A stretch of DNA of 37,582 nucleotides from Bacteroidia bacterium. GTDB lineage: Bacteria; Bacteroidota; Bacteroidia; DATLTG01. The number at the start of each line of letters is the position of its first letter. Position 1 is the first letter of the stretch. Location of the stretch: the NCBI GenBank assembly GCA_039924845.1, contig JBDTAC010000065.1, positions 1 to 37,582 on the forward strand, written 5' to 3'. Positions 471-917 of this stretch are shown here, one piece after another. Under the pieces are notes generated by a model. That model worked only from the letters and a program-made list of their open reading frames with translations. It did no database searches and was not told the origin of the DNA. Made by a program: the position numbers and the translations under genes.

Positions 471-917
471 ATGAAAATCACCAAAAAAATTTTCGCAATT
501 GTTTGCGTTTTTGCATTTACAGCAAGTGCTGCATTTGCACAAATCCCGCTGGAGCAATGGGCGCACAACCATCCTGCTGCATCAAAAGAACTGGGCGAAT
601 GGGTAAAAAATCATCCAAAAGCTGCGCGCATTATGTTTGAGTGGGACGGCAATCATCCGGAGCGTTCACAAGAGTTTGTAACCTGGACTATCAATCATCC
701 GAAACAAGAAATTGATGCTTTTGCAGCGATGCATCCTAATTGGTCTCATTTAGATGAAATAATGAAATCGCATCGTCCAGCTGCAAGGAACTTTATGGCT
801 TGGTGTCGCAAACATCCGAAAGCTGCCCATGATTTAATGGCGCACAAAGGTGGTTTAAAATGGGCTGGCGATCATTTGTACAAAGAATCTTGGAATATGG
901 AAACGCCCAATAAATAG
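471..917 (+). CDS. secreted protein of 14-residue W-x-x-N-H-P repeats
   Basis: I do not recognise the family. The 148-residue product starts at the ATG at 471; an upstream TTG in the same frame would place extra residues before a clear signal peptide. The signal peptide is a Lys-rich start, a hydrophobic core and AFA before Gln24. The mature part is almost wholly a repeat of 14 to 15 residues built on Trp, two variable residues, Asn-His-Pro and a helix-like stretch ending in a large hydrophobic residue (WAHNHP, WVKNHP, WDGNHP, WTINHP, then AMHP, SHRP and WCRKHP). About seven units can be counted. The high His and Trp content is notable and could mean metal or ligand binding, but that is inference. 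It is a single-gene unit closed by a strong terminator. TAATCTTG at 427-434 is a one-mismatch -7 element. Confidence 0.75.
   Translation: MKITKKIFAIVCVFAFTASAAFAQIPLEQWAHNHPAASKELGEWVKNHPKAARIMFEWDGNHPERSQEFVTWTINHPKQEIDAFAAMHPNWSHLDEIMKSHRPAARNFMAWCRKHPKAAHDLMAHKGGLKWAGDHLYKESWNMETPNK

Follow-up and report, generated by a model that had tools for sequence, protein, structure and literature searches.

A 148-residue exported protein with a 14-residue His-Pro repeat and its apparently undescribed family of predicted helical envelope proteins

The stretch of DNA that we analyzed, referred to here as the window (37,582 nucleotides), comes from a Bacteroidia genome of 2.66 Mb, in which it is contig 65; this genome is the sole one of its order in our comparison set. 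An open reading frame on its forward strand (471-917) runs from an ATG to a TAG stop (915-917) and encodes a product of 148 amino acids; this was taken as the whole gene on the basis of the ORF call and its relatives, and an alternative upstream TTG start at 432 would add merely 13 residues ahead of the signal peptide. Downstream on the same strand lies an intrinsic terminator, found by its sequence pattern as a 12-pair stem followed by a T run (939-965), as had been proposed in the first-pass annotation, and the next gene is radC (1012-1707, Pfam PF04002). A search of positions 1-2000 of the window against Rfam returned zero matches. Two other repetitive tracts were also seen in the window: a 42-bp tandem array of 4.5 copies, 89% matching, at the extreme left contig end (1-188), which probably caused the contig break, and, between radC and the gene that follows it (1707-1823), short tandem repeats of degenerate TTACGAAT units.

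That 471-917 is a real gene, as had been suspected, is borne out by the existence of relatives and by the pattern in which they differ from it. Differences at codon positions 1/2/3 numbered 34/23/70 in comparison with L074 (the same gene as L064), 36/29/69 with L031 and 38/35/69 with L025, and residues that were identical in the two proteins were specified by a different codon in 42 of 75, 32 of 72 and 35 of 71 cases, respectively. Because the differences fall mostly at third codon positions in all three comparisons, coding is supported, and we concluded that 471-917 is under protein-level selection.

The protein begins with a signal peptide, MKITKKIFAIVCVFAFTASAAFAQ (471-542, forward strand), which we read by eye as ending in an AXA-type cleavage motif (AFA-Q) with cleavage just before or at Q24. 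Since this signal lacks a lipobox Cys, the protein was not classed as a lipoprotein, and no C-terminal sorting domain was seen on the 148-residue chain. Most members of the family described below, L033 among them, also carry an N-terminal export signal by eye, either of the ordinary Ala-X-Ala type or with a lipobox; lipobox motifs were read in L026 (STAC), L034 (ALGC), L035 (LPAC), L044 (ASGC), L074 (SFGC) and L058 (PSC). That some forms are soluble and others lipid-tethered suggests a place in the cell envelope, where we infer that the 148-residue protein is also located. The product had been called secreted: export is supported, but an envelope location is the better reading, several relatives being lipoproteins by motif.

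Nearly all of the mature chain (residues 25-148, 124 residues) consists of a degenerate repeat, W-x3-H-P-x-A-A-x2-L-x2. Self-matches within the chain numbered 23 at a lag of 14 residues and 15 at a lag of 28, against 3-9 at other lags; across lags of 5 to 39, a count of 23 never occurred in 5,000 shuffles. The exact pattern W-x3-H-P occurs five times (W30, W44, W58, W72 and W111), where 0.054 occurrences were expected and five were reached in 0 of 20,000 shuffles. The repeat first noticed from the sequence therefore holds, exact and degenerate units together filling nearly all of the mature protein, but its description as Trp-xx-Asn-His-Pro units holds only in part: only four units, at 34, 48, 62 and 76, have a literal NHP, the stretch from residue 77 to 110 departs from the regular pattern, with HPNW at 88-91 and HRPA at 101-104, and in the final unit the sequence is WAGDHL.

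In addition to the gene at 471-917, which is single-copy and has no paralog in its own genome, we found 15 full-length relatives, for a total of 16 full-length members, and six divergent ones. The full-length relatives comprise L025, from an uncultured Bacteroidetes metagenome-assembled genome (MAG), L026, from a MAG recorded as Proteobacteria, L031, L064-L066 in Bacteroidia, and nine additional strong members from six genomes of the phylum of L026. All 16 share W-x3-H-P units at 14-residue spacing, F56, D59, H62, F84, H88, W111, a GLxWAG motif and an export signal. The divergent six are L030 and L068, from a single genus, and L038-L041, in which much of the C-terminal part is missing. These proteins are rare and their distribution is patchy: one order had them in 1 of 36 genomes, another in 4 of 11, and one taxonomic family in 2 of 30. 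They come from at least two bacterial phyla, one of them that of the Bacteroidia; in a tree the two phyla were not cleanly separated, which is compatible with a single origin. Two diverged copies lie within 1.8 kb of each other in genome G703 (L054, 8726-9166 and 9969-10475), which carries a third on a different contig.

Several other candidates were rejected as relatives. L027 (E = 1.8e-4 in one of 395 genomes, hhalign 60) is an OmpA-type protein with a WAxTHP linker, L069 and L070 are long coiled coils, the reading frame of L042 was not gene-like, and the weak matches from early searches other than G044 were also set aside. The L027 linker (1501-1689) is made of 13-14-residue GLWARTHPxGKDTT repeats, which have the Trp-x3-His-Pro spelling of the 148-residue protein without its helix-forming part. 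Separately, the products of L078 (7819-10023) and L079 (5975-8263) are very long coiled coils in which a LMNQTQQHEQAAEG-type unit of 14 residues is repeated; their genes lie beside similar smaller ones.

Across 17 loci, for which we used our own gene calls, no neighboring gene was conserved, which fits a stand-alone protein and gives no lead to function. Neighbors were common only to close lineages (L054/L056 and L059/L062), and in two genomes of one genus (L058/L077) a similar lipoprotein gene, with DUF4399 in L058, and an HTH gene adjoin the family gene.

We modeled the 148-residue protein with AlphaFold2 using 18 sequences, together with L045, a member from the other phylum that is 36-38% identical to it. 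The mature window protein was predicted to be all helical (pLDDT 91.6, pTM 0.85), L045 scored similarly (pLDDT 87.4, pTM 0.80), and the five models made for each protein scored alike. On this evidence we regard an all-helical fold as likely, bearing in mind that AlphaFold2 may be over-confident on repeats, as is reported for beta-solenoids (PMC11795689). Units with a short helix had been anticipated and are helical in the model, and disorder, which had been named as a possible refutation, was not found.

The AlphaFold2 model (DSSP assignment) opens with four predicted helices, encoded on the forward strand like those that follow: helix 1 (L27-N33, mature 3-9; 549-569), which holds the invariant W30; helix 2 (P35-N47, mature 11-23; 573-611), after the joint His34; helix 3 (P49-N61, mature 25-37; 615-653), after His48 and containing the invariant F56 and D59; and helix 4 (P63-N75, mature 39-51; 657-695), after the invariant joint His62. 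The irregular part is predicted to form a short helix 5 with the invariant F84 (mature 57-63; 711-731) and, after the loop H88-P-N-W91, helix 6 (mature 68-76; 744-770). Helix 7 (mature 78-90; 774-812), with the invariant W111, follows the joint His101, and helix 8 (mature 92-99; 816-839) follows His115. The conserved C-terminal unit, with its GLxWAGxH motif, corresponds to predicted helix 9 (mature 104-112; 852-878), and a short helix 10 (mature 114-118; 882-896) ends the chain.

At each of the five regular joints (His34, 48, 62, 101 and 115; mature 10, 24, 38, 77 and 91), the model breaks for a single residue, and in four of the five this His is followed by Pro. In the L045 model the helices are interrupted for one residue at H14, Y28, H42 and H95, which correspond to His34, 48, 62 and 115; its break at Tyr28, in the place of His48, suggests that the joint survives replacement of His by Tyr. 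Unlike in the window protein, helices 6 and 7 are fused into one in L045 (72-94). The regular unit is thus predicted to be one helix of about 13 residues, with one residue outside the helix, in most cases His, standing directly ahead of Pro. A Foldseek search of the PDB gave no match at E ≤ 0.001 (best E = 1.9 for the window protein and 5.0 for L045), and the window-protein model had no match among viral models; as Foldseek may be weak on small helical repeats, we take the PDB result to mean that there is no obvious match and not that the fold is proven new.

Thirteen positions are invariant in the 16 full-length members: W30, W44, A52, F56, D59, H62, W72, F84, H88, W111, A119, L122 and L129. 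H101 (15/16) and H135 (14/16) are nearly so, both above the variable joint His (H34, H48, H76 and H115), where relatives may have N, F, Y, D or S instead. The first-pass annotation had suggested that the regularly spaced His might line up on one face and bind metal or sugar. This idea did not fare well: the 4-3-4-3 spacing of Trp, His, Ala and Leu is that of a buried stripe, and most His are therefore best understood as joint residues between helices within this heptad stripe, which weakens the case for a metal-binding face. No evidence for sugar binding was found in this analysis. What the conservation does make possible is a localized polar site, with the invariant pair D59-x-x-H62 (645-656, forward strand) as a candidate together with H88 (732-734), H101 (771-773) and H135 (873-875). 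This candidate site is not common to all distant kin, since D59 is lost in the divergent L038-L040.

If these five residues converged in one site, as opposed to His arrayed along one side, the protein could be an envelope protein that binds or handles metal, which we consider unlikely. They exceed the other His in conservation, D59 stands one residue past Trp, a place that in other units mostly holds a small or hydrophobic residue (A, V, T or C) and where an invariant acid is unusual, and the mature chain is rich in His (12 among 124 residues). However, the joint role also explains His at regular joints, several joint His vary, and no metal-related neighboring gene recurs. The invariant D59, H62 and H88 and near-invariant H101 would also suit an enzyme whose catalytic D/H site is borne on an unusual small helical fold, but no enzyme family matched, the repeat architecture leaves little non-repeat sequence, and these residues are lost in divergent members, making catalysis very improbable.

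Another possibility is a purely structural repeat protein, one that might serve as a filler or spacer between layers of the envelope, in which conservation arises from folding alone. Most invariant positions are of core type (W, A, L and F) and the gene context is not conserved, which would fit; D59, H62 and H88 nevertheless seem to go beyond what joint packing needs, and the confidently predicted compact fold does not resemble an open linker, so that we doubt this explanation as well. The patchy carriage and the tree in which two phyla are not cleanly split, though one origin is compatible, might also suggest an accessory gene that moves between lineages and serves in competition or self-protection, and indeed an integrase lies near L075 and a transposase adjoins L052. 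We judge this improbable nonetheless, given that ordinary chromosomal genes surround most loci and that nothing turned up for the family in plasmid, phage or viral-contig collections, PHROGs or PADLOC.

Our preferred reading, to which we give somewhat less than an even chance as a whole, is that 471-917 encodes a member of an undescribed family of exported helical HP-repeat proteins that act as a binding or scaffold module in the envelope. Each regular unit would be one 13-residue helix with Pro as its first residue, and the residue preceding Pro, usually His, would be the lone non-helical joint between helices, as both models predict; Trp, His, Ala and Leu, judging from their spacing and conservation, would form a buried stripe. 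The N-termini suggest that such a protein would be soluble in the periplasm here and lipid-tethered in relatives with a lipobox. The resulting small, rigid module could bind or scaffold an envelope partner, probably through the region of D59, H62 and H88, although we put this role forward only tentatively. Similarly speculative is the broader proposal of a new helical-repeat class, with a 14-residue single-helix unit, one-residue joints (usually His) before Pro, a compact fold not in the PDB, and a role as a binding module of the envelope, equipped with an invariant Asp/His site. Should the models prove correct, the unit would be an unusually short helical repeat with a simple code (W...HP.AA..L..), of interest for repeat-protein design and classification, and the members in Bacteroidia and a second phylum would make up an unannotated envelope family overlooked by current family libraries.

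We also compared the family with known proteins. The earlier view that it belongs to no named family stood, as PHROGs, PADLOC and the PDB gave no match to the family and Pfam and NCBIfam none above their curated cut-offs, no described repeat family was hit, and no enzyme or defense family matched. The best Pfam/NCBIfam score of the window protein, 16.6 bits to SP24, covered the signal peptide and first unit and fell short of the cut-off of 30. None of 18 members reached the cut-off of any Pfam repeat family, and even with E values as high as 1 allowed, no named helical repeat (TPR, HEAT, Sel1 or PPR) was among their hits. A weak match of about 55 residues to a segment of nicalin (PDB 7tm3; E = 0.026 with profile A3 and 0.2 with profile A4) was absent from the fold search and was attributed to chance. 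The open literature on His-Pro or 14-residue helical repeats yielded nothing relevant. Within the scope of Pfam, NCBIfam, PHROGs, the PDB and the open literature, the best explanation is that this family of small exported helical-repeat proteins is undescribed.

L043 (1207-1944, reverse strand) encodes a secreted protein with about nine 17-residue [WF]-x3-HP-x2-A-x2-L repeats and no convincing Pfam family. It shares with the family the order W/F, HP and Ala/Leu ([WF]-x3-H-P-x2-A-x2-[LI]) and reaches an hhalign probability of 93 against the family profile, but each of its units is about three residues longer; it may be a longer-unit cousin. The alpha-helical repeat proteins TPR, HEAT, PPR, Sel1 and ankyrin have units of about 31-42 residues, the HEAT unit being two helices (PMC11514114). 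Like these proteins, which generally serve for binding, the family would consist of tandem stacked helices with a short repeat and few signature residues; it differs from them in having no Pfam or PDB match and in its unit, which is 14 residues long and predicted to form a single helix.
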